DNA of 64,000 nt. Source: Hyperoplus lanceolatus (Eukaryota; Chordata; Actinopteri; Uranoscopiformes; Ammodytidae). Within the stretch, counting starts at the first letter, position 1. The number at the start of each line of letters is the position of its first letter. Positions 3,715 to 58,899 of this stretch are shown in pieces. The notes under the pieces were generated by a model. That model was not told where the DNA came from. It saw only the letters and a program-made list of their open reading frames with translations, and did no database searches. The stretch lies in NCBI GenBank assembly GCA_026929865.2, contig CM049403.1:24112001-24176000 (forward strand). The letters run 5' to 3'. The position numbers were made by a program, and so were the translations under genes.

Positions 3715-5514
3715 GCACGCCACATTTAGTAGTGTGAAATATATTTTGCCTGGATCCCAAGCAAGCTAGCTGGGTTTGCTTCACTGCCTGCATTTTTTAT
3801 TTTTATTTTTTTAACATAGGGCCTACATACTTTTACAACATACATTCATCTATATGCACCATGCCAGCCTCTGTAACATCTACTGAAACTAAAAAGTTTT
3901 CAAAGTACTTTGACAAGTAGGCCTAGTGTACTGATTACCTAACATTAACATATACATAGCACACATCTGTCATGTGGCCTACTAAGCTATGGCTAACTCT
4001 CAATTTAGATCGACGCTACAAATATGAGAGTTGTGTCGATCTTTGTCGCCAAACTCCAATAAAACAAATGTTTCCTGCAAAAGATCAAATTATTCCTTTT
4101 TAAGTTTAATCTGAAAATGTCTTCTACAAACGCTTTATCCATTGATAGGCTACATAAATGAGAAGGCTGAAAACAGTGTGAGACGATATACAGAGAAAGT
4201 GGCCTTCACTTGAGAGGGATCAAAATGCGAGAAACATACTTGAATAAATATTTATGAGCCACTTGACACTCATGACAAAATATCTAGGTTTATGAAGAGG
4301 CCTTTCTGCACGTAGAGAGGCTACATGTCGTCAGGAAATTGTTTGAAAACCCCCCAGAAACAGGAATCGCTTTATGTCAGATTAGGAAGGGCTTTCCTCA
4401 AAATCTCCTCTAAATGAGAGGGATTCTTTTGAAATCCAAATAATACACTATCCCAGGGTATTTAGGTCAGTTGGCAGAATCTTCAGTAACCAGAGGACTT
4501 GATATACAAGATTTAATTCACTTTACCAATCATTTTTTGGTTTACACAAAAGACAGGAAATAGGCCTGTCATGTAGACAACTGTCAATACAGCACAGATG
4601 GGGGTTTCACGTTTTTCAGAAAGAACATCAAGTTTGGGATAACTGTTACAGCCACAGTTCCCAACAATGACAGTCAGAAGTCAGAAGTGTTTTCTCTGGA
4701 AGGCCTAGCCATTAACATGTGTGTATCACCCCCTTAGATAAAAATCCACTAACTGAGATGATCTCAATATCTTTCCCAGTTAAAGTCAAAGCCTGGATAA
4801 CTTCAGGAGAAGATTCAGTGCCTGATTCAAGGTCAAGTTAACTATATTATCCTCCCTGAAGGGGAATTTGGTGCACAGCCATCAGTACAAGACAGCAAAC
4901 AAACAAATAAGACAACAAATACCAAACAACAACAATAAACTAATCACAATTTCATGTGGCCATTGACAAGACTGATAGCAGCAGGCATACATATTTTTTT
5001 TAAAACCTGTGTGTTCAAAGTTCAAGGGATGTGTTGAAGCAGCCATAATTGAAAGGGCTTTCTTCAATGACCTGACCTTAAACAAGTCATGAAAGTCACT
5101 GAATAAGTGTTGAACTCATGGCAGGTTTGTGAAGAATAGGTCTCTCCTGAATAGTCGATTATCAGCTCAAATTAAAATGCTTGCTGCTGCTTCAGAGTGC
5201 ACCAACAATCCTCAATAAATTCAGAATCAAGTGGTTACTTTAACTGTTTTGACTTCTAAAGTTTAAAGAGACAATGTTAGTTATTAAGACTCATTGTGTT
5301 GTTAAACTAATGCGATCAAGTTTTTCCCACATAGCTATGTACGACACAATCCTAAATCCTAATGTTTCAGGCAGATTATATCTTCAATTTAATTCTGCAA
5401 AGATGATTGATTTCCTGACAATGATTTCAACACAATTTTTTCACAGTATTTGGACTCCTGTACGGCCACAGTTTTAATGCCAGTACAAGAAATGTCCCAT
5501 CACTGAACACTGAC
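3715..5514. other. Intergenic, no gene seen
   Basis: Unique-looking AT-rich sequence. Frames are short and unsupported, and no splice-linked exons or clear repeat ends were found. Confidence 0.55.
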
Positions 5515-13000: not shown

Positions 13001-13826
13001 TCAAGTTACACCTTCACCTTTTTGTTGTGTGTCCAAAACACATACATAAATAATACTTTAAAACAAGTTAAATGGAAATCTGCAAAATCCTCACAATTGT
13101 GAAGATGGAAATATTTCGCATATGAAATATGATTTGGTATTTTAAAATATAACAAAAACAGCATGTAACCAGCTAATGTTAGCATTAAGAGCTCTTCGCC
13201 CTGAATTGTTGTGGAGTTGATGCACAAAGTGGCACGCAAATTAAAGACAAATGTGTACTTGTATATATTGTCACAGGTCTATTTCAATGATATGTATTGA
13301 CATGATAATCTTGTTGAGTCAGAGATATTAGTTGTATAATTATTGTTGATAACTGTGGAGAATCCAGCAGCTCTACTTGAGTTTGCTAATAAAATGGTTA
13401 CAAACAAGTTTATCAATTTGCATCCAAATATGACTCATGCGTGAGTCAGTGGGTGAGAAAAAGGCTGCTGCAGCCTCTTCTGTCTCAATATATCATCGTG
13501 TTTAGACGCTCTACCACCAGCTAAACAAGTTGACCTCTTGACGGGATGCCACGAATATTACGCAGCGTTGCTGTGACGCCAACAACGACAGATGAGACCT
13601 AGAGCGGAAATTGAAAGAAAAAAAGTCAGTTTTCCTGTTTGTCTTAGAGTGTCCCATCCATCCCTGTCAGGTCGCTGGGTGGTTCACTCCACAGCCCGCC
13701 TCTCGGCGCAGCTGGAGTTACTGGAAAGCAGAGGGGATGAGAGAAATACCCCTTCTGAATCCTTATCTTCTGCTCCAGGGGCTTAAAAAGGAAATGCAAC
13801 CCCAAAGCTTCATCAGACCTGAGGAA
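10098..13826. other. Intergenic upstream of the prostaglandin receptor
   Basis: No supported gene. Frames around 12142-12587 and 12704-12958 are short and overlap one another in several frames, as expected by chance. The last few hundred bases presumably carry the promoter and 5' leader of the receptor gene, but no TATA box stands out. Confidence 0.5.
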
Positions 13827-13865
13827 ATGTCGCTAATAAACACCAGTTTCTTGGTATTTTTGGCG

Positions 13866-15920
13866 ATGGAGAGGCCAAACTTTACGCACGGATCTGTTTC
13901 CATAAATGACACGCAGGTTCAGGATTCACAGGAGACCGGGGTCCAGACAGCAATCGCTTTGCCGATTTTTATGTTTGCTGGAGGTGCAATTGGGAATTTA
14001 ATTGCAATAATAGTCCTTTCCGTATCAATACAGGAGAGAAAATCGTCTGCCTTCTACACGCTGCTGTGCGGTCTGGCGGTGACGGACCTACTGGGCACCT
14101 GCCTGGCCAGTCCAATCACCATAGCAAACTACCTGGACCCGCATGTGCTGAAGGACCAACATCTCTGCGAGTTTCATTCCTTTGTGTTGCTGTTTTTCGG
14201 TTTGACGGGACTGAGCATCATTTGCGCCATGGCAGCGGAGCGGTACCTGGCGATATGCTGCCCGTACACTTACGAGCGGTGGGGAGTGGACCGATGCTTC
14301 GCCCAGAAGTTGCTTTTCTTTATTTACATCAGCAACATTTTCTTCTGCTGCCTCCCGATGATGGGCATGGCGAGGAGCAAGCTACAGTTGTCCACCACAT
14401 GGTGCTTCATAGACTGGGGGACGCACTTGCCGGTGGCCGCGGCTTACTCCGTGCTGTACGGCACCATCAGCCTGCTGCTCATCCTGGGAACCATCGTGCT
14501 GAACCTGGCGGTGTGTGGAGCGCTGCTGCTGATGCGGCAGCGCACCGTGCAGCGGCCCGTCACCAGGGCCAGCGTCCGGGACAGGTGGAGGGCGCTGTCC
14601 TCGGCCGCAGAGACCCAGATGATGGCGGTGCTGGTGATGACCTCCGCGGTGGTTCTGGCCTGCTCAGCCCCGCTAGTGGTGAGTCAGTGAAGGATGAAAC
14701 TGCAGAATAACTAAAGATGTCCGATAAATTCAGTGGAGTAGAGGTAGCCTACTTCTAGGTCTACTCCACTTCATCCACCTGAGTGTTCCATAGTTTAATA
14801 GGCCTATGGCCTAGTCTATAGGCTACAATTAGCTAAGTCAATTGTGTAAACGTAGGACAACTTTGTTATTGTCCACTACTGATAATCAGGAATATTCTAC
14901 TTCTGACTCTATCAAAATACTGTATTTTTTCAACACACCATTGATCATTAGTTCATTGTTAATATAAATAGGCCTACAAATAGGGAGGTATTTGCTTTGG
15001 TGCACCAGTTCTTTCCTTCAATCCATCAGAAAAATCCAACAGCACTATGTTGCCTACCTAAAGCGAAACAAAAGGAAAATATGGCATTACACTAAAGTAA
15101 ACCTAATGTAAAACTAGATGAACTTTATTGCCAGTGTTGTAGCCTACTGCAGCAGATTTATGACATTATGTCTGTGTTTCCCAAAGTGATATACAGTTTT
15201 TAGCTTGTTTATCTTTTCAAAAAGGAGCCATGAGTTGAATCTGAGGGGTCATGGGACGATTAGTCTATTTTCTGCCCTTTCTCTAAAAAAAATAACCATT
15301 CACTTGTTAAAAACTGAAGTAAATGTCTTGTTTTCCCCTTTCAGAACTCCAAAAACTATTCCAACAAAACAGTTTGAGAAGATTTTTTTTTTAAACAGCA
15401 CACTATTCCTAGCCATGTTAACAGAGTAAAGTAAGCCACATGTGCTCTGCATTTTATAGGGTCCTTACAGTTCTTATAAATTTTCTATCTTTATTTGAGA
15501 TGTTTATCCAGACATACTGGAAGACATTGCAGCGTTTTTAAGATTCTTCACAGTATGAAGGAGCTGTGCTAACTTGTTTTTCTCTTTAAGGTCCGTGTGT
15601 TTGCAAACTGCTTCATGCTGGAAAGCGACCCCAAAGCGGACCTGGCTGCTATCCGGATAGCCTCCGTCAACCCCATCCTGGACCCCTGGATCTACATCCT
15701 CCTCAGGAGGTCTCTGTTTCGACGGTTACTCAGTGTATACAGGAGAGGGGGCAGCACTCACAGTAAGTCACCTTCTAGCCCACAAAGGAATCTGTTATAT
15801 CCAACACTGATGGCCGACAACCATGTGTTCAACCAGCTGATGTGCAATGCAAACGTCATCACTCAGCTGCCCGCCACTGTCAAATTCACTCCGCACGACA
15901 CAGAGAGCCTCCAGACGTAG
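13866..15920 (+). CDS. ptger4: Prostaglandin E2 receptor EP4-like GPCR, two coding exons
   Basis: Seven-helix receptor for prostaglandin E2 at the plasma membrane; family members of the EP4 type raise cAMP through Gs. Exons are 13866-14678 and 15591-15920, joined in phase after helix 6, giving 380 residues. The intron position is the usual one for prostanoid receptors. Visible landmarks: N-glycosylation sequons at N5 and N14, Cys101 and Cys180 for the extracellular disulfide, ERY at 125-127, the prostanoid loop TTWCFIDW at 177-184, and in helix 7 the ligand-site Arg293 followed by DPWIY at 302-306. An upstream in-frame ATG at 13827 would add 13 residues; I chose 13866 for its better start context. 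The tail after helix 7 is only about 70 residues, much shorter than in human EP4 (488 residues in all). EP4-like rather than EP2 or DP by the helix 3 and helix 7 text; which teleost paralogue (4a, 4b, 4c) is not settled. Confidence 0.88.
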
Positions 15921-19477: not shown

Positions 19478-19651
19478 GGGGGCGCTTGTGGTGCAGTGGT
19501 CAGAGCATCACCCCCTGGGCCCAGGCCCCGCAAAAGACCCGGGTTGAATTCTGCCCGGGTCAGTTCTCTGCATGTCTTCCCCACTTTGCCCCATTTCAAC
19601 TCTGTCACTCCAAAAACCTGTCTAATAAAAGCAAAAATGCTCCAAAAATAA
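19478..19651 (+). mobile_element. tRNA-derived SINE
   Basis: Head GGGGGCGCTTGTGGTGCAG, then a B-box-like GGGTTGAATTC, then GTTCTCTGCATGTCTTCCCC and a tail with AAAAGCAAAAATGC. Related 3' parts occur at 20130-20220 (+) and in reverse at 41112-41217. Not a functional tRNA because the acceptor stem does not close. Confidence 0.7.
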
Positions 19652-35269: not shown

Positions 35270-38200
35270 TCATTCCAGACAGACGTACGGCAGAATGTTC
35301 AACCTGCTCTCATCTCCATGTGGGTCTAAGGAGATGCACTCCGTCCAGTCAAACCAAGTACCCTTTGTGTCGTAGCAACCGTTAACCCCGGACCAGTGCC
35401 CTGTGTGTAATCTGTTCAGGTCCTCAGGGATGAGCTCTCTGCTAACGCCGGGTAAATCCCTGGCTGAGACTTCTGGTGCTAAAGTGTGCGTTTTCTTAGC
35501 ATCTTTAATTTGGGGTTGCTCTTTTTTCAAGAATTCTGTCATGAAAAAGTGTGCACCAGGCGTGTGGGCGCCCGACGTGGTCAGCACATTGCTTTGCTGG
35601 CTAAGGTATGATTGGATGATGTCGCTCCTTGACAGCTCTTTCCAGTCCGTCTGCTGGAAGGGACTGGGAGCAACCGGAACCTGCGGAGTCTGTTTCGGCA
35701 TCTCTGACCACTGGGCTTCAGGTGTGGGATCTGGTCTTACCTCCCCCTCCTGGCAAGACTCCTTATGAAAGGAGGATTTTATCTGTCCTGTTACAGGGTC
35801 AAATGTTAGTCTCCTGTCTTTTAATCGGACTGCTTTAGTGCTGTCTTCTACAGTCTGCCCATCTACCTTCAACACATAGTCCTTAGACTTGCATTTATGT
35901 CCTTTTATTTTCCCTGTATTGCCAACAGAACCACCCTCTTCCAAACTGACCCCAGCGCTGCACGAGGAGGCATACGAGTTGTGAAGAGACGTATCGGTAG
36001 TCCTGCTTTTAGAGTCCAAATCTGCAGACCATGAACTGTCGGTGTGCAAACCCTGAACACAAACATTAAAAGGCTGTGAGGAAGATGCCGGCCCAGAGGC
36101 ATCCGCAGACTCAGGCCTCACAGTGGGGCTAGAAAGACTGTTTTCTTGCGATGCAGTTTGTTTGACGCCAGCTTCATGCTTTGGAGTTAGAGGACTGTGC
36201 AAGGAGCCGCGTGGGCTTCTGGGTCTACACTGCCCCCCAGAGGAAGCTTGCTCCCGTCTGACTTGCTGCTGTAGAACTGATGCTTTGAGCAAAGAAGAAG
36301 TGCTAGGAGGCTTGCTGTAACCCGGGGCACTTGGATGAGGTTTTACAGCAATGACAGGGATTTTATTTGGCCTGTCATTATCCAAAGTCTCTGAAATCTC
36401 CTTGTCCGAAGGCTGATGTGCACGAGTATCTGTAAAAATGTCAGAGCTACCGCCTATACCATTGGTTAGCAGCTGTTTGGAGTTTTGTATTTTATCATTA
36501 GTTATTATAGTTTTGGATATCTTTGCTGGTAGTGGCTGTCCTTCCTTCTGGTCACCCTTTCGTTTCCTGTTGCTCAGTTTTTCCAGCCTCGGGGAGGAGC
36601 AGTTGTTAAAGTCATTTCTGTTCTTCAGCTCTGGACCTGTTTTACCTGATGGTGGGGTGGCAGCTGGAGTGGAGAGGCAGGGATGAGCTCCACCATTGGA
36701 AGACCACGATGCCCCAGTGTTTCCTTTGGACAACACCTCAGCCTTCCCAGGCTCAATCAGCTTCTGCCAGGTTCGGAGGAGCTTCTTGGCTCTTTTTGCG
36801 AGGTCCTCATTCTTTGTTTGCTTCCGGACATCGTTGATGAGCTTGCCAAGACGCGTTTCCTTTAAAAGAAATAAGATCAGTTGTTAAAAGCTGCTGTGAC
36901 TTGATTGGACTAAAATCCAATTTATTTTAAAAAGCAAATACTGTAGATGTCAACGTAACCTACCTCCAGTGCCTCTTTGGTGATAGGATATTTCTCCAAA
37001 TAGGAGATCACCTCCATTACTACCACCATGTTGCATATCTGCTGAAAAGAAACAGAGGTTTATGGATCACAATTAGGTCAAACAGTAGGGTCAAAGAACG
37101 GTGGTTATACATGTTACAATTTGTGACTCATACCTTTTAGGTCAAATAAGTTTGACAGATGAGACAAAGGCTGCTTAAAAGGTCAAGGCATCATTTGAGT
37201 AGACTTTCAGGTGTGCACCTGTGTGTCATGAGACACTGTACTATAATACTAGTTTCGGGCTCAATATGACAAACTGAGATTTCATGCAAATGTGCCATTT
37301 TATACCACAAGCAGGGCCGCCCATAAGGGGTAGAAAGTGGGAAGGCTTTCTAGGGCCCAGCCATTTGGGGGGCCCATGGTCTTTGGAAGCCAAGAACCTA
37401 ACTAAGCTAAACTTTATTTTTAGATATTTATGTCAATATCTAAAGTTGGGTGTTTACACAGAGCCGCGGCTCCGCTTACGGCCATTTAAAAAGCAGTAGA
37501 AAAGCAGAAATGTTCAAAATGTTTCAGATTGAGCACAGCGGAGTGTAACTGTTTCAAACATTATCCATCCTATAAACCCTTTGTGTGCCAAATGGTGACA
37601 AGATTGGGTTTTGATATTAAACAGTTTTGGCTGGATTATATTTCCTGAGCCGTTCCTGCTCACGGAAAACACATGTAAGCCTACTTGCTACTTGTGTCTG
37701 GGTGTCGTTGTGAAAAGTATTTGACCCCATGAAAAAACAGGTTGGGTACCTTTTGTAGTTCTTCTACATTAGTTACATAAGTCTTCAGGTTGACACGACC
37801 AGCCAACTCTGACTAGTTTTTCAGAAACCTGGCCAATTGACCAACCAGCCGGGTCCTACCACAATGAAGCTGACGAGCAGCATCATCCTGTTTTAATTAT
37901 TGCCGTAATCGCCAAGGTCCTGATTTCTGTATTGTTTCTTAAAATAAAAATAGACCTTAAAAAGTTCTTAATGCAAAGAAAGACACAAGGCACAAAGAAG
38001 TTGGAAATAATTGAAGGAACAGATTTGAGTTCAAAGATTAAGAACTTTTTTTGTAATGACTTCAGTGCTTTTGCAGTGATGAGAGCCTAAATGTTGCAAC
38101 CAAACATAGGCCAACTTTATAGTTATGAGGGTAGGTTGGTTTGGTTATTCATGTAGAGAACTGCCTTTTTTTCATTTGTGTGTGAAGAATTTGTTGTTGA

Positions 38201-39400
38201 TGTTGTTTTTTAATTGTTATTTATTTCAACAATACCCCCAAAAGATTTCAAATGATTTAATGTCATGTGCAGAAATACAAAAAAGTGCAATATTTGGTGC
38301 AGTCAATTAGTGTAAATGTATCTTACCAGAAACTAGAAGCATAGAAAACATGCAAATTGTGAAAAAGCCGTTTGCTTTAGTGAATACTAAAAAGAAAAAC
38401 AATGTCTCTGTGTGAACTGATTATTTTGTAGAGATCTGTTGATCTGTTAAACAATTGTGTGAGTGTAAGGGAATCAAAATAAATTGGTAGGTATGCTGGG
38501 CTAAGTCAGAAATGTGCTACTATTTTAAGATAATAATGAGCCCTTGCTCCCCCAACTGTCCCTGGTTGATAAGATAGTTAGTTTCTCTACAAATACATGT
38601 ATGTGTTTATTGAGGGATGAGCGCAAGGGGGGCCCATTGACTGGAGGTTTTCAGGGGCCCAGACTTTTGTGTGGGCAGGCCTGACCACAAGTACACCAAG
38701 TCAGATCCGAGGTTCAAGACAGGTGATGACAACAGCAGTGGATTCACTTGAATATTAAATGAACTATTAGAATAATTTAATAAATATATATATATATATA
38801 TATATAAATGAGAGAGAGAGAGAGAATAACTAGGTGTAATCTTTTCTATTGAAAGTAGGATTAATAAAGGGCTATAATATTATCTTCTTCCTCTTAACCT
38901 TTACTCCCCCTTTGGCTGTGCCCTGAATCTCCCCGGTCTCTGAGAAGTGCTGTAACATACCAATGCAACCTCATCAGCTCTGTAATGTGAAACCTTGATC
39001 TTGCTGTTGACCCACAAATTAAAATCAAGGTCTATCACCTTATCTGCACATTTACAGTTTGGTTTCCAAAGTCTCCATTCCTTAAGCAGTGTGATTACTT
39101 TTTGTGTACACAAAATAAAGCTAATTTGGCTTTAGCGGCAGTCACTTAGCCAGGCTATCACAAGTAGTGATGTTAGCCGGCTAATTAGCAGACAAATAAT
39201 AACTCGCCTGACACCAACTGCCCGGACTTTGTCAGCCGTCTGTGGTGAGCCGGGGTCGGCTTGGCCTTGCTGTCGGCCCCCCTGCGCTAGGTTTTGTCTT
39301 TGTGGACACTAGTAGCGGATATACTCACATTGCTCTGGCCGTCTATGGCCTGTAGCAGCCGGTCTTTCATGCCCTGCGGAGTTGCTGTAGCCGCTGTCAT
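35270..39400 (-). CDS. med26: Mediator subunit 26 (CRSP70), three exons
   Basis: Nuclear Mediator subunit that links Mediator to RNA polymerase II elongation factors. Exons are 39400-39329 (24 codons), 37038-36964 (25 codons) and 36859-35270 (530 codons with stop), all in phase, giving 578 residues against 600 in human. The N-terminal TFIIS-N/LW domain covers about residues 10-87 across all three exons, with LEKYPITKEALEETRLGK and AKRAKKLLRTWQKLIEP. The middle is long, Ser/Pro-rich and poorly conserved, as in other vertebrates. The C-terminal Mediator-binding part is well kept: RRLTFDPVTGQIK, then TDWKELSRSDIIQSYL, GAHTPGAHFFM, and the end WFDWTECISLDPHGD plus LNILPYVCLE. The start codon is in a GC-rich region. 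Neighbours slc35e1 and smim7 are on the same strand, as in human. Confidence 0.97.
37312..38683. mobile_element. hAT-type transposon (1372 bp) in med26 intron 1
   Basis: Left end CAGGGCCGCCCATAAGG, right end reversed CAGGCCTGCCCACACAAAAG, flanked by the perfect 8-base duplication ACCACAAG (37304-37311 and 38684-38691). No transposase frame. A partial second copy in the opposite orientation lies at 60733-61190. Confidence 0.88.
38784..38826. repeat. (TA)n then (GA)n microsatellite
   Basis: About 11 TA units followed by about 8 GA units in med26 intron 1. Confidence 0.9.
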
Positions 39401-39762
39401 CGCCTGGCGGTGTAGCGTGTCGGGACGGACTCAGTCAGCGGTCTCCCCCGAGGAGGCGGCGGGTGGGAACCGGCCGACACTCACAGGCCCGACCGATGAT
39501 CCTCTGCTGGCGCGAGCACCATGTTTTATGATGCTTTTATCTTTGTTTTCACTCGCCGCCGCCACGATTTGATACTTCGGACGACGAGGACAGAAAATCC
39601 CTCTCCAGGACTCGGCTACCCCTTTCGGCTGGTAGCCTCTTCCTCCCCTCCTCGAGCTGCTCATCGAGCTTTTTGTCAAGCTCTCGCGCAAAGCATGATG
39701 GGAGGATTGTACGTAACCTTTCTTTATAGGTCCATGTACGTAACAGATGTGGCGTAAAAGCG
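39401..39762. promoter_or_regulatory. med26 upstream region, GC-rich
   Basis: About 360 bases of GC- and CpG-rich sequence between the med26 start codon and the foldback element, with GCCGCCGCC-type and CGGCGGG motifs. This is the expected place for the med26 promoter and 5' leader. No TATA box is evident. Confidence 0.45.
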
Positions 39763-40030
39763 CGACGCTGAAGTTGGCAGGTGATTCGCAGCAGCCGATT
39801 CGGCAGTTAAGGAAAAGTTAAGGGATTCTTAAGGAGCTGCGGAGCGACTGATTCTCCGTTTTTTAACCTCCTAAATCGCCGCGGTAAAGCCACATTAATT
39901 AGTCTAGATGATCTAAGAGAGTCTAACCATTCTTTAAAAACAGTTTACAATTGATGTAACCTTTATTAAGTTTGTTTAAAAGAAAGAGAGGAGATGTTTC
40001 ACTGCTTTTTTTCATCTGGACCACATTAGA

Positions 40031-41096
40031 ACTGGTCCTGATTGAAAACCACTGCACCTAGACTCTTCAAATCTGGACTAGAATATCACAGAGAGGCTAT
40101 ACATTATGGAAAACATAGTTTCTGATTTGTGAAACTTTTTTTCTATTTGTGAAAATGCAAAGAATGCACATTTTAATGTTTTTTAGGGGTCTAGGCCGCA
40201 TTAGAACTGGTCCTGATTGAAAACCATTGCACCTAGACTCTTCAAATCTGGACTAGATTATCACAGTGAGGCTATAGATTATGAAAAATTTAGTTTCTGA
40301 TTTGTGAAACTATTATTCTATTTGTGAAAATGCAAAGAATGCACATTTTAATTGTTTTAGGGGTCTAGGCCGCATTAGAACTGGTCCTGATTGAAAACCA
40401 TTACACCTAGACTCTTCAAATCTGGACTAGAATATCACAGTGAGGCTATAGATTATAGAAAACATAGTTTCTGATTTGTGAAACTTTTTTTCTATTTATA
40501 AAAATGCAAAGAATGAACATTTTAATGGTTTTTATGGGTCTAGGCCACATTAGAACTGGTCCTGATTGAAAACCATTGCACCTAGACTCTTCAAATCTAG
40601 ACTAGACTATCACAGTGAGGCTATAGATTATAGAAAACCTAGTTTTTTGATTTGTGAAACTTTTTTTCTATTTGTGAAAATGAAATAAAGGCACATGTCA
40701 ACGCTTTTTTGGGATCTAGACCGCATTAGAACTGGTCCTGATTGAAAACCACTGCACCTAGACTCTTCAAATCTGGACTAGAATATCACAGAGAGGCTAT
40801 ACATTATAGAAAACTTAGTTTCTGATTTGTGAAACTTTTTTTCTATTTGTGAAAATGCAAAGAATGAACATTTTAATGGTTTTTAGGGGTCTAGGCCACA
40901 TTAGAACTGGTCCTGATTGAAAACCATTGCACCTAGACTCTTCAAATCTGGACTAGATTATCACAGTGAGGCTATAGATTATAGAAAACCTAGTTTTTGA
41001 TTTGTGAAACTTTTACCCTATCTGTGAAAATGCAAAGTATGCACATTTTAATGGTGTTTAAGTGTCCAGACCGCATTAGAACTGGTCCTGATTGAA
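40031..41096 (+). repeat. Left array: ~175-bp tandem repeat, six units
   Basis: The box ACTGGTCCTGATTG recurs at 40031, 40206, 40380, 40555, 40731, 40906 and 41081, a spacing of 174-176. Each unit also holds CACCTAGACTCTTCAAATCT and ATTTGTGAAAATGCAAAG. Units differ by a few percent. Confidence 0.95.
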
Positions 41097-41111
41097 GCTG
41101 ATGTCTTTATA

Positions 41112-41217
41112 TTTGTTTTTTTTTGTTTTGTTTTTTAAAGATATTTTTTGGGCATTTTTATGCTTTATTGACAGTGTAGAGACAAAGTTGAAATGAGGCA
41201 GGGAGGGGAGGGACATG
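41112..41217 (-). mobile_element. SINE 3' fragment, reversed
   Basis: Reversed, it reads CTCTGCATGTCCCTCCCCTC and an A/T-rich tail with GCATAAAAATGCCC, like the 3' parts at 19478-19651 and 20090-20228. Confidence 0.5.
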
Positions 41218-41487
41218 CAGAGAACGGTTGGTTACGTTGTAACCCAGGTTATCTGAGTGGAGAGACTATCTCCCCACCTTACATAGTTGACGTGGATACT
41301 CTTTAAGACACATCACTTGTGGCGGCCACGCATGATTGGCCAGCCGTGGCGGCCACGCATGATTGGCCAGCCGTGGCTATATAAGCTACACGCATGCGTG
41401 GCCTCTTCGGTTTGAACCTTGATTGGAACGCGTTTCTGAGTCTCTCCACTCAGAGAACCTGGGTTACAACGTAACCAACCGTTCTCT
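41218..41487. repeat. DIRS-type terminal inverted repeat region
   Basis: The block AGAACGGTTGGTTACGTTGT at 41219 returns as its reverse complement ending near 41485, with CTGAGTGGAGAGA / TCTCTCCACTCAG next to it. The start with GGTTACG..GTAACCC resembles known fish DIRS ends. Between the arms, 27 bases (GTGGCGGCCACGCATGATTG and on) are duplicated in tandem at about 41320-41377, followed by a TATATAA box. Confidence 0.6.
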
Positions 41488-41619
41488 ATCGTGTCAAGAC
41501 TATCTCTCCATCCTACATATTCCATATGTACGGGGACTTCTGTAAGGCACACCGCGAGGAAACCAAGCAGACCCAGCTGCTCCTGCGGGAGCCTAAATAA
41601 AAAAGGCAGTTGAGTTCGA

Positions 41620-42116
41620 ATGACACGTCACCACCACCAGAGTGTTCACCCATGTGCCCAGTATAAAGGAACTATTTACAATTATACATTATGGCTGTCA
41701 TGGGGCTCCAGGGAGAGAGCAACGGGGCAAGTCCAGGGAGCTGAGTGTGAGCAGGCAGGCAGAGGGGTCCGGGAGGAAGTGCTGGCGGGCGAGGGCTGGA
41801 GCTGGTGGCTGGAGTCAGGCCGGGAGAGCTGTGGCAGAAAAGACAGGAGTTAGCCAGGAAAAATGCAAAAAAGCAGAGCTGCAAACAGGTTAGCTTAGAG
41901 AGAGGACTGACTGTGTGGAAACAGAATTTACAATCTGGCAGTGTCTGGCAGGTAGGGCCGGGTATATGAAGAGCAGTTGATTGATGATTGATGGCAGCTG
42001 TGAATGCTGGTGATTGACTCCAGTACACCTGACTCCAACCCTGCAATAGACCAGCACATAGACAAGGGTAAAAGGGAAAAACAACACAAGGGCTTGAGGC
42101 CCAAGCCGGATCATAA
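41620..42116 (-). mobile_element. Probable insertion breaking the DIRS recombinase
   Basis: On the minus strand the recombinase frame stops being recognisable at about 42116, where a sequence starting TGTTATGATCCGGCTTGG begins and runs to about 41620. It looks like an LTR or other non-coding insert, but no target duplication was found. Confidence 0.35.
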
Positions 42117-42736
42117 CAGATGGTGGAAAGGGTGCAGCTCAATAGATCGACCGGCGTGGGACTCAGACCAGACTTGAAGGTGAAATGCAGGGTTCGGGCG
42201 CAGCACCACCCCAGCACCACCTGGCAAGAAGCGGCAGCAGTCCTCATGCACTGAAAGAGCATGCAGCTCTTCCATTCTCTTAGCAGACACAATTGCGAGC
42301 AAAAACGCTGTCTTGAGAGAAAGCCATTGTAGCCTAGTTCTATCCAGGGGCTCGAATGGCTCATTCTGCAAGGCCGACAGCACCACCTCCAAATCCCATG
42401 GGGGGACAGCTGGCCTTCTGCGATGTGGAGTAACCCTATGAGCACCTCTAAGAAACTGAGCAATAAGGTTGCAACAGCCTTCTGCCAGCTTCCGAGGTCC
42501 AACACGGGCTGCCTTTATGGCTGACACTATTCCCCTAAATGTCAAGGGAGATTTTCCCACCTCCAACATTTCCTGGAGGAACTGGAGAATGTCATGGGCC
42601 ATGCAGGCGAGGGGATCCACCTGTCTCGAATTTCACCATGATTGAAACCCTCCCCAACGATAAGCGTATGCCGCCTTCGTTGATGGAGCCCGGGCTCCTT
42701 GTAGAGTGCTAACCACAGACTGGGGCAACCCCATAG
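42111..42736 (-). pseudogene. DIRS tyrosine recombinase fragment, frameshifted
   Basis: The start lies in one frame (LQGARAPSTKAAYAYRW, about 42700-42640) and continues in another (DILQFLQEMLEVGKSPLTF, then WLSLKTAFLLAIVSAKRMEE). These are the SAM-like N-terminal domain and the start of the catalytic domain, including the first catalytic Arg in AKRMEEL. The frame changes at least once near 42630, and the rest of the catalytic domain (second Arg, His and the nucleophilic Tyr) is lost at 42116. It cannot be active. Confidence 0.75.
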
Positions 42737-43633
42737 CTAGAAACCCGGCCCTCTCAGGGGCCAGGCCCAAAGCCGGAGACCCTGGGGAAAAGGATGAAAG
42801 AGAGTCCCGTGGACCTGGGACAGGAGGTCCCGCCGACCCGGGAGCTCCCACGGGTGTCCCTGAAGGAGGGTTGCAATCGCTGAGAACCAGATCATCTGGG
42901 GCCAGTAGGGGGCCACCAGGATGAGGCTCACCTCTTCCACCTGAACTCTCTGTAGAAGTGTATGATGGAGGGTGAAGGGAGGGAAGGCATACAGGAGGCC
43001 TTGTGGCCACTGTTGTGCCATGGCATCCGTGCCCAAGGGAGGATCGCCCCTTTTCATGGAGAAAAAGAGGGGACAGTGAGCTGTCTCCCTCGAGGCGAAG
43101 AGATCGGCTGTGGCTGTACCAAAGAACTCCCAGATATCGCTCACGACCTCCGGATGCAGTCTCCATTCCCCGGGGAGGGGTCCCCCTCTGGAGAGCCGAT
43201 CTGCCGCAAGGTTCACTTGACCCGGGACGTGCATCGCCCTGAGGGACTTGAATCGTGGATACGTCCACTCCCATATTATCTGAGCCAATCTGCAAAGGCG
43301 CGGAAAACCCAGGCCCCCCTGCCTGTTTATGTATGCCGCTGCCGATGTTCTGTCTGTCCTTACCAGTATATGGCGGTTTTCCAGCTCTGGCAGGAAGTAC
43401 AAAAGAGCTAAATGGATAGCCTGCAATTCCAACTGATTGATGTGCTGTGTCTTGTGTACGGCTCCCCAGCCTACCAGGGAGGCGTCGGCGGACACCACCT
43501 GGCGACGCAACACCACCCGCGACGCAACACCGGCCCCAGTACATTGCCCCGTGCTAAATTGGCTGGTACCTCCCACCAGCGGAGAGCTATGCGCAGTCAT
43601 GGACAAGCACGCCCTGAGTTCCTGATTTGGCAT
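42737..43633 (-). pseudogene. DIRS retrotransposon RNase H region, degraded
   Basis: Open over 298 codons and matches the RNase H part that follows reverse transcriptase in DIRS1-like elements: SADASLVGWGAVH, then QLELQAIHLAL, then RTDRTSAAAYINRQGG, then HVPGQVNLAADRLSR. The first Asp, the Glu of the QLEL motif and a later Asp of the RNase H fold can be seen. The reverse transcriptase palm upstream is missing because the right array begins at 43700. It precedes the recombinase fragment, the normal DIRS order. Confidence 0.8.
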
Positions 43634-43699
43634 CCAAACAAATGCCCAGGAACTCTGTCGATTGTGAAGGCTGAAGCCTGCTCTTTCTCTTGTTGAGTC

Positions 43700-45308
43700 T
43701 AGGTGTAGTGGTTTTCAATCAGGACCAGTTCTAATGCGGTCTAGACCCCAAAAAAGCGTTGACATGTGCCTATATTGCATTTTCACAAATAGAAAAAAAG
43801 TTTCACAAATCAGAAACTATGTTTTCTATAATCTATAGCCTCACTGTGATAATCTAGTCCAGATTTGAAGAGTCTAGGTGCAGTGGTTTTCAATCAGGAC
43901 CAGTTCTAATGCGATCTGAATCCCAAAAAAGCCTTGACATGTGCCTTTATTGCATTTTCACAGATAAGGTAAAAGTTTCACAAATCAGAAACTATATTTT
44001 ATATAATGTATAGCCTCACTGTGATATTCTAGTCCAGATTTGAAGAGTCTAGGTGCAGTGATTTTCAATCAGGACCAGTTCTAATGCGGCCTAGACCCCA
44101 AAAAAGCGCTGACATGTGCCATTATTTCATTTTCACAAATAGAAAAAAAGTTTCACAAATCAAAAACTAAATTTTCCATAATCTATTGCCTCACTGTGAT
44201 AATCTAGTCTAGATTTGAAGAGTCTAGGTGCAATGGTTTTCAATCAGGACCAGTTCTAATGTGGCCTAGACCCCTAAAAACCATTAAAATGTTCATTCTT
44301 TGCATTTTCACACATAGAAAAAGTTTCACAAATCAGAAACTAGGTTTTCTATAATGTATAGCCTCACTGTGATATTCTAGTCCAGATTTGAAGAGTCTAG
44401 GTGCAGTGGTTTTCAATCAGGACCAGTTCTAATGCGGCCTAAACCCCTAAAACAATTAAAATGGGCATTCTTTGCATTTTCACAAATAGAATAAAAGTTT
44501 CACAAATCAGAAACTAAGTTTTCTATAATGTATAGCCTCTCTGTGATATTCTAGTCCAGATTTGAAGAGTCTACGTGCAGTCGTTTTCAATCAGGACCAG
44601 TTCTAATGCGGTCTGGACCCCAAAAAAGCGTTGACATGTGCCTTTATTGCATTTTCACAGATAGGGTAAAAGTTTCACAAATCAGAAACTATGTTTTCTA
44701 TAATGTATAGCCTCACTGTGATATTCTAGTCCAGATTTGAAGAGTCTAGGTGCAGTGGTTTTCAATCAGGACCAGTTCTAATGCGGCCTAGACCCCTAAA
44801 AACAATTAAAATAGGCATTATTTTCATTTTCACAAATAGATTAAAAGTTTCACAAATCAGAAACTATGTTTTCTGTAATGTATAGCCTCACTGTGATACT
44901 CTAGTCAAGATTTGAAGAGTCTAGGTGCAGTGGTTTTCAATCAGGACCAGTTTAAATGCGGCCTAGACCCCTAAAAACAATTAAAATGGGCATTCTTTGC
45001 ATTTTCACAAATAGAATAAAAGTTTCACAAATCAGAAACTAAGTTTTCTATAATGTATAGCCTCTCTGTGATATTCTAGTCCAGATTTGAAGAGTCTATG
45101 TGCAGTGGTTTTCAATCAGGACCAGTTCTAATGCAGTCTGGACCCTCAAAAAAACTTGAAATTTATCTTTATTGCATTTTCACAAATAGAAAAAAGGTTT
45201 CACAAATCAGAAACTATGTTTTCCATAATGTATAGCCTCTCTGTGATATTCTAGTCCAGATTTGAAGAGTCTAGGTGCAGTGGTTTTCAATCAGGACCAG
45301 TTCTAGTG
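43700..45308 (-). repeat. Right array: same ~175-bp repeat inverted, nine units
   Basis: CAATCAGGACCAGT recurs at 43717, 43891, 44066, 44241, 44414, 44588, 44763, 44938, 45113 and 45288, spacing 173-175. It is the reverse complement of the left array. Confidence 0.95.
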
Positions 45309-45570
45309 TGGTCCAGATGCAAAACAAGCAGTGAAATCTCCCCTCTCTTTCTTTTAAACAAACTTAATAAAGGTTACATCAATTGTAAACTGTTTTTAAA
45401 GAATGGTTAGACTCTTTTAGATAATCTAGACTAATTAATGTGGCTTTACCGCGGCGATTTAGGAGGTTAAACAACGGAGAATCAGTCGCTCCGCCGCTCC
45501 TTAAGAATCCCTTAACTTTTCCTTAACTGCCGAATCGGCTGCTGCGAATCAGCTGCCAACTTCAGCGTCG

Positions 45571-47383
45571 TCGTAAACGCAGACAATGGTGTTGAAGGTT
45601 GGTCATATTTTCTAATAGAGGCATACATTTAATTAATCATTTTATTCCGTGACATTTCTTTCCTCCAGAAGTCGTAAAAACAATTGTTTTCATATTGTAA
45701 GGCTATTCATAATATGTTTAGAAACACGCACATCTCCATAGTTAAACATTAGGCTATACTACTCAAAACATTTCCCTCAAATACATCCTTTTTATGTTTA
45801 CAATTATAGAACTAAAGAAAATGCCCCTTTATATTGAATCTGTATTATGGACAAATTCAACATTTAGCTTGCATACCCTACATCTTACGAATAATTAATA
45901 CTAGTCATATTAGTAAGTATAGCTTAATTTGGACACTACTTGCCCACAACATTGGTTAAAACCATAGACTGTATCATGGGTTAAAACCTTATCTGTACTA
46001 CACATATCTTTAGTTTAGATGACCCGGCTTCCCACATGTTAAAATGTATTACTAAATAGATTTTTTGTATTTCACTTCATGTATTGAGCATGGACTGATA
46101 TAAGCTGCTTTCCACTTTGATTCAATTCTGTACGTATTGCTCTTTTCTTACGTCGACTCGTCACTTGACGGCGCTGTTGACTTGGTGGAATAAAGTTGGA
46201 AGATCAAAATAGACTGCACAGTGTAGAACAATGCATTAAAGCGATAGGTGTGACCCTTCAAAAGAAAGAGGAGAAATAAGTAATCTCATTCTTCTACCTA
46301 CAGAGCACTGGATCTAAATTGATCTAGGGTCCACACAGGGAAGTTAATTTCCATCTACAGGCAACACATTACCTGCCAGTGGATTCAAACCCTTTTGGCT
46401 ATAACAACACAAAAACCAAATAATATCATAATTGAACATTAACAGCTGGTGCTGAAAATTTTAAAGAACACATCATTTGCATTTCACTGCATACATCAAA
46501 AAGGTCTTGTTTTGTTTTGCTAAAGTCTGTAGATTTCTTGCACATTTATTGCAAAACATAATGTAGTGTAATAACTTTATAGTACATACTGTATACAATT
46601 AGTATCTTTGTACTATCATTAGGAGAAGGTACCATGCCATCTTCATAATGGAACACTACATTCACAAAATAAACTGTATTAAATGTGTCAATAGACAGTC
46701 ACAGAACAGACGTCAAAGTCAATGAATAGAGATTGGATAAGAAAAGTGTATTTTTATTGTTAAGAACAAAACACATTAACCTTAATGTGCACATCTTTTT
46801 ACTTACAGCACGAGCCCCACAGTAATAGAAAATTGCATTTATTTTGTCTTACACAAAAACCTTAACAGCAGATTAGTACATTTGGAATTGTTTTTGTTAT
46901 TTTCACCAATAGATGTACGCAAAGTTCATCAATTTTGACTGTTGAATTAAACTGAATGACAGTAAAAGGGACATAAGGAGTAAGGACAACCGTGATGACA
47001 CTAAATGATTTTTTTTTTAATTGGAGAGGGCCTTCCACCCAAGTGTTTTCTTTAATAAGCAAACTGACATACTGCAGAAAACAGTTCACGTTCTACAATG
47101 AATGAGAAAATATCCAACGAAGGCAAGTTGCTGCTACAGTTACATGCAAAGCAAAACGGGAAAAAAATTTAACAACATCTGTAAAACAAAATAAATACAG
47201 CGATTCATGAATTCCTGTACAGCCAGTGGTAGATTTACAGTTTGGGGAAGTGAAGAAAATGAAGCATAAATACAGTTAAAAAGGGCCAAAATAAAACAAA
47301 GTCAAAGTCCTATCGAAGAGACGTTTGCAGTTTCCATCTTGGTAAATTCAGCATCTTCGTGGAGGCCCAGTCACACATTTTGA
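45571..47383. other. Spacer and smim7 3' UTR
   Basis: No other gene. The right part is the probable smim7 3' UTR; a minus-strand AATAAA is at 46758-46753, about 630 bases after the stop. The left part is AT-rich unique-looking sequence. Confidence 0.5.
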
Positions 47384-57232: not shown

Positions 57233-57327
57233 CTCTCCCCCCACCAAAAATGTTCATGCCCTCATGACATGTAATAAAAAGATCACATCTGTTCTTTGAC
57301 AGATTACTTGAAGACTTCCAACCATTC

Positions 57328-58899
57328 ACATTTAACTTATCCACTTGTAAAATCCAATCTGACTACAGCTCTGGGCAGACAGGGTCAACTGGAGCAACAC
57401 ACACTGCTTCTGGATGTCAGACAGAGGATCATCCAGACACATTGCCAAAACCTCTTTCAACCTTTTGCCCTGCTCGTACACCTGGATTCCAGGTATTTGG
57501 AGTTTTAGACAACCCCAGTCCCTCCAAGCTATATAAAAGTTTTTTAGATCACAACACTGTGAAAATACAAATAAACAAGCCAAAAAGAGCATCGCACAAG
57601 GGAAGAAATTCACCTGGAATGACATCAGTTTTTTTTAAGTTCATTGGCCTACTGTTTTACATGGCAATTGTGAAGCTTCCCCAAATGCATCTGTACTGGA
57701 GAAAAAAAATCCTTCTTCTCTGTGGTATCTCCAGCCACTGTACTGTCCAAGAATGTCTTCCAGACCATATTGTGGAACATTCATATGAGCAATCCGGAAA
57801 AAGATGCTGTGAATGACCAGTAGAAAGGGACACCAGCATATGACCCACTCCAACGACTCAGGCCATTCTACGACCAGATGAGAATGACTTGCAAGGCGTT
57901 ATTCCATCCTCGGCAGAACATTTCAGTCGACGAGAGAATGGTAGCCACAAAAGCTAGGATCGGAATGCGGCAATACATCAAAAGTAAGCCGACCAAGTGG
58001 GGTATTAAGCTTTTTGTTCTGGCTGATTCTTCAAATGGCTACACCAGCGACTTCACCATCTACACAGGCAGCTCGAAATCCGTCACCGGACTTGGTCTCT
58101 CACACGACTCCATTATGGGCTTGATCGATCCAAGGAAGTGGTTATCACCTTTACTGGGATAACTTTTAAACAAGTCCCAAGCTCTTCAGAGATCTTCTTT
58201 CCATGAAGGTCCATGCCTGTGGGACATACAGGGACACAAGGAAGGGCACACCAAAAACACAAATTAATGCACTGACCAAAAAGTCTACGAGAGGAAGCAG
58301 CAGGTGGATTCGTGAAGGGCATCTCCTTTTCACCAAGTGGATGGACACAAGGGAGGTGTCACTTTGCTCATCAATTCACACGGTCCATTCAGGGGAAACT
58401 GTGAAGAGGCGTGTCAAGGGGAGAGATGGACAGTGGCAGCTACAAACCACACCCATACCAACATCTGTCACAAAATATAACCAGTACATAGGGGGTGTTG
58501 ATTTGTCCGACCAGCTCATTCAGTACTACTCCGTACATCACAAAACACTTAAATGGTACAGAACCATTTTTCGGCACTTCATTGACATTGCTGCAACAAA
58601 TGCATTCATCATTCACAAGGAACTCTGTCAAAAAAAAAAAAAAAACGATTCAACCATTGAACCACTTAAGTTTCATGGAGACCCTCTCAATTGAACTCTG
58701 TGGAATCAATGTGGAAGATGTCCCACCGTCCAGACCCTCCAGATCTGCCCCACTGTCCATCTCAACTTCTCAACTGCTCTGTGCCCCGGTTGCTGTGAAC
58801 CCAACTGCAGAAAAATCAGAGAAAGCGACAGAGGGAAGGCACAGGTGTGTCCTTTGTAAAAAGAAACTGCAATGTTGCACTTTGTCTTATTGTAGATAG
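57328..58899 (+). pseudogene. piggyBac-like (PGBD4-type) transposase, dead
   Basis: Fragments in several frames match piggyBac transposase in order: FFKFIGLLFYMAIVKLP (about 57635), ISVDERMVATKARIGMRQYI and KPTKWGIKLFVLADSSNGY (57917-58050, with the first catalytic Asp in SVDE), then YNQYIGGVDLSDQLIQYY (58479-58533, around the third catalytic Asp), and a cysteine-rich end CVLCKKKLQCC (58850-58880). Frames shift several times. In the motif around the second catalytic Asp (near 58158-58172) a stop codon replaces the Tyr after DNF. A run of 15 A at about 58631-58645 has been copied through. It cannot make a working enzyme. Confidence 0.85.

Follow-up and report, generated by a model that had tools for sequence, protein, structure and literature searches.

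The element beside med26

The window, a 64-kb stretch of DNA, carries a med26 gene on the minus strand, identified by a Med26_C domain (Pfam, 1.2e-84) at 35273-36883, with a start codon placed by eye near 39400. About 360 bp from this codon lies a copy of a fold-back element of 5,810 bp (39762-45571); the identity of the gene and the spacing both agree with an earlier note on this DNA. Each terminus is one base further out than in that note, which had placed the element at 39763..45570. A 9-bp target site duplication flanks the element, the left copy (CGTAAAAGC, 39753..39761) matching the right copy (CGTAAACGC, 45572..45580) at 8 of 9 positions.

The terminal inverted repeats begin with a left end domain (39762..40012, plus strand) and a right end domain (45321..45571, minus strand), which are 96% complementary over 250 nt (39763-40012 and 45321-45570). 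The left terminus of this copy reads GCGACG, as against ACGACG usually found in the family described below. Inside the end domains are inverted arrays of a 175-bp unit: approximately 6.1 copies with 90% matches on the left (40013..41096, plus strand; the repeat itself at 40024-41096) and approximately 9.2 copies with 89% matches on the right (43691..45320, minus strand; the repeat itself at 43695-45305). Between the arrays is a core of approximately 2.6 kb (41097..43690). A 5.8-kb foldback element with inverted arrays of a module of approximately 175 bp had been proposed from the letters alone, and its ends, its arrays of approximately 6 and 9 units and its core are all confirmed here. The inverted ends had been described as unique and approximately 265 bp long; they are indeed present, but they align over 250 bp, of which the inner 116 bp represent the 175-bp unit in diverged form. 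No Rfam family matched at gathering scores over 38000-47000.

A dispersed mobile family

When the end was compared with the 807-Mb genome from which the window derives, the best 40 of 194 candidate places were scored, and all had 96-100% identity. Two of these 40 are the window's own ends; the other 38 make the end a multi-copy sequence, and 15 contigs are represented in all. Both termini could be read in 21 copies, which are 1.55-14.4 kb long with nested insertions counted in. The left terminus is ACGACG in 17 of the 21 and the right terminus is CGTCGT in 20. The copies compared differ in their flanks and target duplications, and the 9-bp duplications are perfect in 15 copies, match at 8/9 positions in three, at 7/9 in two and at 6/9 in one. 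Among 420 mismatched flank pairings used as a control, one reached 7/9 and seven reached 6/9, with none above 7/9. The window element is one copy of a mobile family. We know of no named family with the terminus ACGACG, and an exact search for the end pattern in viral contigs gave no match.

The earlier note had held that a single-copy end, together with the same inverted structure at the same site in related species, would indicate a local inverted duplication and not a mobile element. Such a duplication at med26, or an assembly artefact, has practically no likelihood: nothing beyond the inverted structure itself speaks for it, and it is rejected by the 38 other near-identical ends across the genome and by the different flanks and target duplications of the 21 copies.

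The number of units per arm ranges from about 1 to about 44 across elements. Dispersed mobile copies with target duplications, bounded by long inverted repeats of tandem modules whose number varies between arms and copies, place the family in the fold-back (FB-like) structural class. The likeness to foldback architecture noted at the outset is borne out by the end domain, tandem modules, middle domain and varying module number, as described for Tetris (PMC4079207) and Tm1 (PMC3169594).

Sequence homology connects the 175-bp unit with the inner 116 bp of the end. An alignment of the two majority sequences scored 38, as against a maximum of 22 among shuffled sequences (n=1000), so that 0/1000 shuffles reached the score; for an inverted control the count was 138/1000. 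An earlier comparison of single sequences was weak, its score being reached in 13/300 shuffles. This homology makes it probable that the arrays originated in that inner segment.

Content and origin of the core

The core (core 1) is a truncated retrotransposon, presumably DIRS-like, that belongs to the mobile unit. It begins with a piece of a common genomic repeat (41097..41225, plus strand) into which, as read by eye, the retrotransposon end is inserted. Free copies of the repeat (at approximately 19563-19650 of the window on the minus strand, and in loci L015 and L027) continue past the point at which the retrotransposon starts, also by eye, and the segment is therefore read as a host repeat split by the retrotransposon. 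The retrotransposon end (41219..41487) consists of a 49-bp inverted repeat (41219-41267 and 41439-41487) around a loop, the orientation of which is flipped in 2 of 10 elements compared. An insertion of approximately 425 bp (approximate bounds 41694..42118) is present only in the window copy and its sister L040 among the loci compared; other cores have approximately 510 bp of different sequence at this place. An open frame on the minus strand (42111..42632) resembles part of a tyrosine recombinase, with R and HxxR-like motifs recognised by eye and no match in Pfam or PDB. Another on the same strand (42737..43714) has an RNase H domain (PF13456, 3.1e-5, above the curated cut-off), for which the matches in L010 fall below the cut-off. 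No reverse-transcriptase family profile matched the core frames.

The same junctions between core and arrays recur in much of the family. Among 30 elements selected by their ends, 21 have at least one of the two core 1 junctions and 17 have both. Conversely, at all five core-selected places checked, a sample from the best 40 scored core matches, the same junction with a fold-back array was found at the one side compared, and neither a core 1 copy outside the fold-back family nor a parental copy of the segment was found among these five. The core had been described as foreign, which holds for its origin; its being an insertion private to the window copy is rejected by the same core and array junctions in other elements. 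Distinct non-CpG changes are spread evenly over the three codon positions, numbering 35/35/31 in the RNase H frame (17 copies) and 26/28/22 in the recombinase-like frame (20 copies). Judged from these sequence comparisons, core 1 evolves like neutral sequence.

A second, unrelated core with its own junctions is common to three elements. As in multicopy Pack-TIRs, terminal inverted repeats here enclose foreign sequence at several loci, and the target duplications differ from one locus to the next. Pack-TIRs are defined by non-TE sequence as described in PMC8277862; core 1 is itself TE-derived. Tentatively, the family may be a repeated cargo amplifier that has captured at least two unrelated segments (perhaps three, with L024) and multiplied each of them, its arms growing toward satellite-length arrays; the retrotransposon lineage would then persist in the genome only as a passenger of a DNA transposon.

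Transposase and mechanism

No transposase had been visible for the outer element, and none belonging to it turned up among the frames of the window, those listed in the interiors of 11 loci, seven frames compared with Pfam (from L010, L014, L020 and L022) and the frames of the second core read by eye; L029, L031-L036 and L038 lay outside the frame scan. Among the Pfam-compared frames, L022 yielded a piggyBac piece, L014 a weak HTH match and L020 a DDE_3 match below the cut-off; all three were read as nested elements and rejected as the family's own transposase. Labels given by eye to nested elements were Tc1-like and, in L016 and L009, LINE.

MULE domains are found at eight places in the genome, one of them, at C5:18504434, within an open frame of 430 aa; by eye, none of the eight lies less than 0.6 Mb from an end or core place among the matches listed. 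In the P superfamily, to which Galileo belongs, target duplications are 7-8 bp, shorter than the 9 bp found here. Mutator (MULE) target duplications are 8-11 bp (PMC6446971), a range that includes the perfect 9-bp duplications of 15 of the 21 copies. PMC4079207 places the majority of fold-back elements in Mutator, and Tm1 combines 9-bp duplications with a member that has a MULE domain (PMC3169594). The 9-bp target duplication thus suggests that a Mutator-like enzyme moves the family.

Very probably, the element is a fold-back DNA transposon of the non-autonomous, cut-and-paste type, served by an enzyme from elsewhere in the genome that is most likely a MULE, with arrays derived from its end and a DIRS-like segment captured and then amplified. 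For the enzyme, the growth of the arrays and the capture, we infer the following course. The 250-bp inverted ends would be recognised by a transposase supplied from another locus, most likely one of Mutator type, and insertion of the element would generate the 9-bp target duplication. The inner part of the end would have been duplicated in tandem to give the arrays, which would lengthen or shorten through unequal exchange or replication slippage. One copy may have acquired, during repair or template switching, a genomic segment comprising a 5'-truncated DIRS-like retrotransposon and its flank, and this chimera would then have multiplied through transposition, which would make the retrotransposon sequence a neutral passenger.

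There are rivals to parts of this course. The same mobile family could use an enzyme of another superfamily (P/Galileo-like, Merlin-like or undescribed), which is rather unlikely given that 15 of 21 duplications are perfect and of exactly the 9 bp that fit a MULE, those of Galileo and P elements being shorter. In its favour, the interiors scanned showed no transposase between the ends, and fold-back builds have arisen with different transposases, that of Galileo being P-type (PMC3169594). It is highly improbable that the DIRS-like retrotransposon is itself the mover, with the arrays and ends carried along as satellite or flank. Although the core is present in most copies read and has an RNase H frame inside, it ends abruptly at the array and has changed evenly across codon positions, and this reading is rejected by core-less copies that keep both the ends and the duplications, perfect (9/9) in L015, L022 and L037 and 7/9 in L013. 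As to capture, the retrotransposon may instead have inserted later into a fold-back copy that already held a host-repeat middle domain of approximately 120 bp, rather than being captured together with the repeat. Its end does lie within the host-repeat piece, at an insertion point that looks normal by eye; its other side, however, is cut at the array inside an apparent reverse-transcriptase frame (by eye), so that a later deletion must be added, and we consider this course doubtful. Capture of the combined segment followed by amplification is the preferred reading.

Comparison with known systems

Fold-back elements have been named from flies, midge, nematodes, plants and sea urchin (PMC4079207, PMC3169594). 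None from a fish appeared, by title, in the open-access library searched (Repbase and subscription papers being outside the search), and the available text of PMC7599744 does not mention "foldback". According to the available text of PMC8277862, the animal reference genomes examined contained no Pack-MULE, and multicopy captures were few in number. The host being probably a fish, the present family would be a young vertebrate one that combines numerous copies and perfect target duplications with two common cores and arrays of 1 to approximately 44 units, and one of its copies sits approximately 360 bp from med26. It would make a good system for studying the growth of transposon arms into satellites and the capture of sequence by DNA transposons.

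The resemblance to DIRS-like tyrosine-recombinase retrotransposons is confined to the core, with its RNase H domain and the inverted repeat at its end; unlike these elements, the core is a truncated passenger, and no movement by machinery of its own was seen. Galileo of Drosophila differs from the present family in its P-type enzyme and its shorter target duplications. Its inverted repeats are similarly long and internally repetitive (PMC4079207, PMC3169594). Tm1, a Mutator/fold-back element of root-knot nematodes, is similar in its composite, variable inverted repeats, its mostly 9-bp duplications and its mostly non-autonomous copies, but its modules are only 13-15 bp long and it has a known member with a MULE domain, whereas none is linked to the family here (PMC3169594). 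Like FB4 of Drosophila with its multicopy capture Ssk-FB4 (PMC8277862), the family is a fold-back-type TIR element with a foreign segment captured and amplified by transposition, although here the captured segment is a fragment of a retrotransposon and the host is probably a fish. Comparison by description with Tetris, a fold-back transposon of Drosophila virilis, shows in both an end (flanking) domain, a variable number of tandem units (of approximately 220 bp in Tetris) and a middle domain, comparable target duplications (8-10 bp in Tetris) with no transposase found, and a kinship between unit and end, which in Tetris is a 37-bp stretch in common. Tetris has only three structurally complete copies (PMC4079207), whereas both termini can be read in 21 copies of the present family, whose captured cores are common to many copies.

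Structure and gene context of the window copy

The fold-back structure proposed in the earlier note, with inverted ends and inverted arrays of a 175-bp unit around a core, was borne out. The left (39763-40012) and right (45321-45570) inverted ends are each 250 nt long and 96% identical (3.6% divergence between the two), and the left array (approximately 6.1 units) and the right array (9.2 units) lie in opposite orientations around a core of 2.6 kb. Comparison of copies shifts both termini outward by one base, to a true span of 39762-45571, flanked by CGTAAAAGC and CGTAAACGC. The neighbouring gene was confirmed as med26, with the element about 360 bp upstream of its start codon (read by eye). 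Elsewhere in the window are a rhodopsin-type receptor frame (13596-14687; 7tm_1, 1.8e-24) and a piggyBac-type transposase frame (58170-58691; DDE_Tnp_1_7, 6.7e-25), the latter part of frames broken across 57268-58691 that include a match to the same domain below the cut-off (57268-57813; 0.0068).

Family size, termini and target duplications

When the 268-bp left end was compared with the same 807-Mb genome, probably that of a teleost, the best 40 scored matches of 194 candidate places were 96-100% identical and distributed over 15 contigs. These 40 ends include both ends of the window copy and, by our pairing, represent 34 elements, of which 30 were inspected: the window copy and the loci L009-L031 (L032 continues L031) and L033-L038. 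The other four lay outside the sample, save part of L040, a locus found via the core search that is probably one of them. Both termini were readable in 21 of the 30 elements, and a single terminus in nine (L018, L020, L021, L024, L025, L029, L030, L034 and L036). The left terminus is ACGACG in 17 of the 21 copies, the exceptions being GCGACG (window copy), ACAACG (L010 and L019) and ACCACG (L015); the right is CGTCGT in 20, with CGTTGT in L022. These 21 elements are 1,554-14,371 bp long, nested insertions counted. Their 9-bp flanks agree at 9/9 positions in 15 copies, 8/9 in three (window copy, L014, L017), 7/9 in two (L013, L016) and 6/9 in one (L028); among 420 control pairings of left flanks with the right flanks of other copies, 7/9 occurred once and 6/9 seven times. 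The mean distance to the majority end sequence is 1.6% for 35 ends aligned over at least 240 bases, a value that understates the age of the family because these ends come from the best matches.

Other mobile sequence was noted in or near several copies. A piggyBac-type element lies within the end domain at L022:4897-8780 (DDE_Tnp_1_7, 2.5e-43 and 5.7e-35). Inspection by eye indicated a fold-back end apparently inserted into a 175-bp unit of another copy (L025:8808-9046), an array interrupted by a nested element with termini AGGGATGCACCGATC and a repeat of the short target sequence next to it (L012:3291-4436), and pol-like LTR retroelement frames at the locus of a fold-back arm (L018:2-2118).

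Origin and expansion of the arrays

The majority 175-bp unit aligned with the inner majority end over 116 bp, in register with the array, at a score of 38, against a mean of 12 and a maximum of 22 for 1000 dinucleotide shuffles; in inverse orientation the unit scored 14, matched by 138 of the 1000 shuffles, and the test was weak with single instead of majority sequences. From this register, the inner part of the end looks like a diverged unit zero. Nearest neighbours were determined for 144 full units, drawn from as many as 15 elements: 76 had theirs solely in another element and 46 solely in the same arm; therefore, much of the unit diversity is older than dispersal, with local expansion afterwards. 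Periods of five units (L027) and six units (L012) occur locally, and the longest arm observed has approximately 44 units (L031/L032).

Core-1 as part of the mobile unit

The two junctions of core-1, the core of the window copy, with the arrays were surveyed in 36 loci representing 35 elements (L031 and L032 count as a single element). The array-to-core junction is present in 19 loci and the core-to-array junction in 24, with at least one in 26 of the 35 elements. For the 30 end-selected elements, one or more junctions were seen in 21 and both in 17; L018 and L038 show the array-to-core junction alone, and L023 and L034 the core-to-array junction alone. In L011 and L019 the latter junction is missing 8 bp, and L012 has an altered form of it. 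Core-1 sequence is joined at other junctions in L014 and L028, as expected of deletion forms, and the core is absent from the interiors of L015 and L022. A genome search with core-1 gave 123 candidate places, of which the best 40 were scored, 13 of them no further than 20 kb from an end on the list. No free copy outside fold-back arrays was found in the sample checked: L041-L045, picked as core-1 matches distant from every listed end and fetched on the core-to-array side alone, all (5/5) adjoin an array at the identical junction. Core-1 is part of the mobile unit. The 425-bp insertion of the window copy is shared with L040 and absent from all other loci compared; L040, on the same contig 2.7 Mb away and 96% identical over 3.8 kb, is its sister. 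Within L011, part of the core is duplicated and inverted (4055-5055).

A different 2.6-kb core, core-2, was found in L013, joined to the 175-bp unit at breakpoints unlike those of core-1, and is present at full length with identical breakpoints in L030 (97%) and L037 (92.5%). The target duplications of these elements agree at 9/9 (L037) and 7/9 (L013) positions, L030 being read at one end only. No large open frame besides simple repeats was found in core-2 by eye. L024, which has an end without any full 175-bp unit, is possibly a third kind of element.

Identity of core-1

On the minus strand of the window, a core-1 frame at 42737-43714 encodes an RNase H domain (PF13456, which passes the cut-off at 3.1e-5). 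The equivalent region of L010 gave RNase H matches below cut-offs only, and its frame, by eye, follows on from a stretch beside the array that resembles reverse transcriptase. Further core-1 frames contain arginine and HxxR-like motifs that we take to resemble those of DIRS recombinases; this identity found no support in Pfam or PDB. At its far end, core-1 has an inverted repeat of 49 bp flanking a loop. The loop is reversed in two of ten elements compared (L010:981-1240 and L020:4080-4313), an inversion that could result from recombination between the two repeat copies or from the action of a recombinase. Adjoining this end are approximately 125 bp that belong to a common genomic repeat, and free copies of that repeat extend, by eye, beyond the retrotransposon start point. 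On the basis of the RNase H frame, the reverse-transcriptase-like stretch, the motifs, the inverted repeat and the adjoining repeat, we tentatively call core-1 a 5'-truncated DIRS-like element plus flank.

Core-1 behaves as a passenger. Distinct non-CpG changes are evenly distributed among codon positions, at 35/35/31 for 17 copies of the RNase H frame and 26/28/22 for 20 copies of the recombinase-like frame, with rough nonsynonymous-to-synonymous ratios of 1.41 and 1.05, respectively; only copies with at least half coverage were retained, indels were ignored and no formal test was applied.

Candidate transposase

No transposase of the family's own was found among the window frames, the frames of 11 interiors, seven frames compared with Pfam and the core-2 frames, L029, L031-L036 and L038 being outside the frame scan. 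The target duplications of Mutator-like elements (MULEs) are 8-11 bp (PMC6446971), and the 9-bp duplication and build of the fold-back family fit this superfamily. MULE domains over the cut-off occur at eight places in the genome, one within a 430-aa open frame; by eye, none of the eight is within 0.6 Mb of any end or core place on the lists, most ends being outside them. We consider it fairly likely that the enzyme of the family is a MULE.

Comparison with known fold-back elements

By structural tests, the family belongs to the fold-back class; no report of a fish fold-back element was found among the open-access papers searched, Repbase being outside the search. Tetris, FB and Tm1 share its mode of build. 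The relation between unit and end is akin to that in Tetris (PMC4079207), and capture followed by amplification is likewise described for Ssk-FB4, a multicopy Pack-TIR of flies (PMC8277862).
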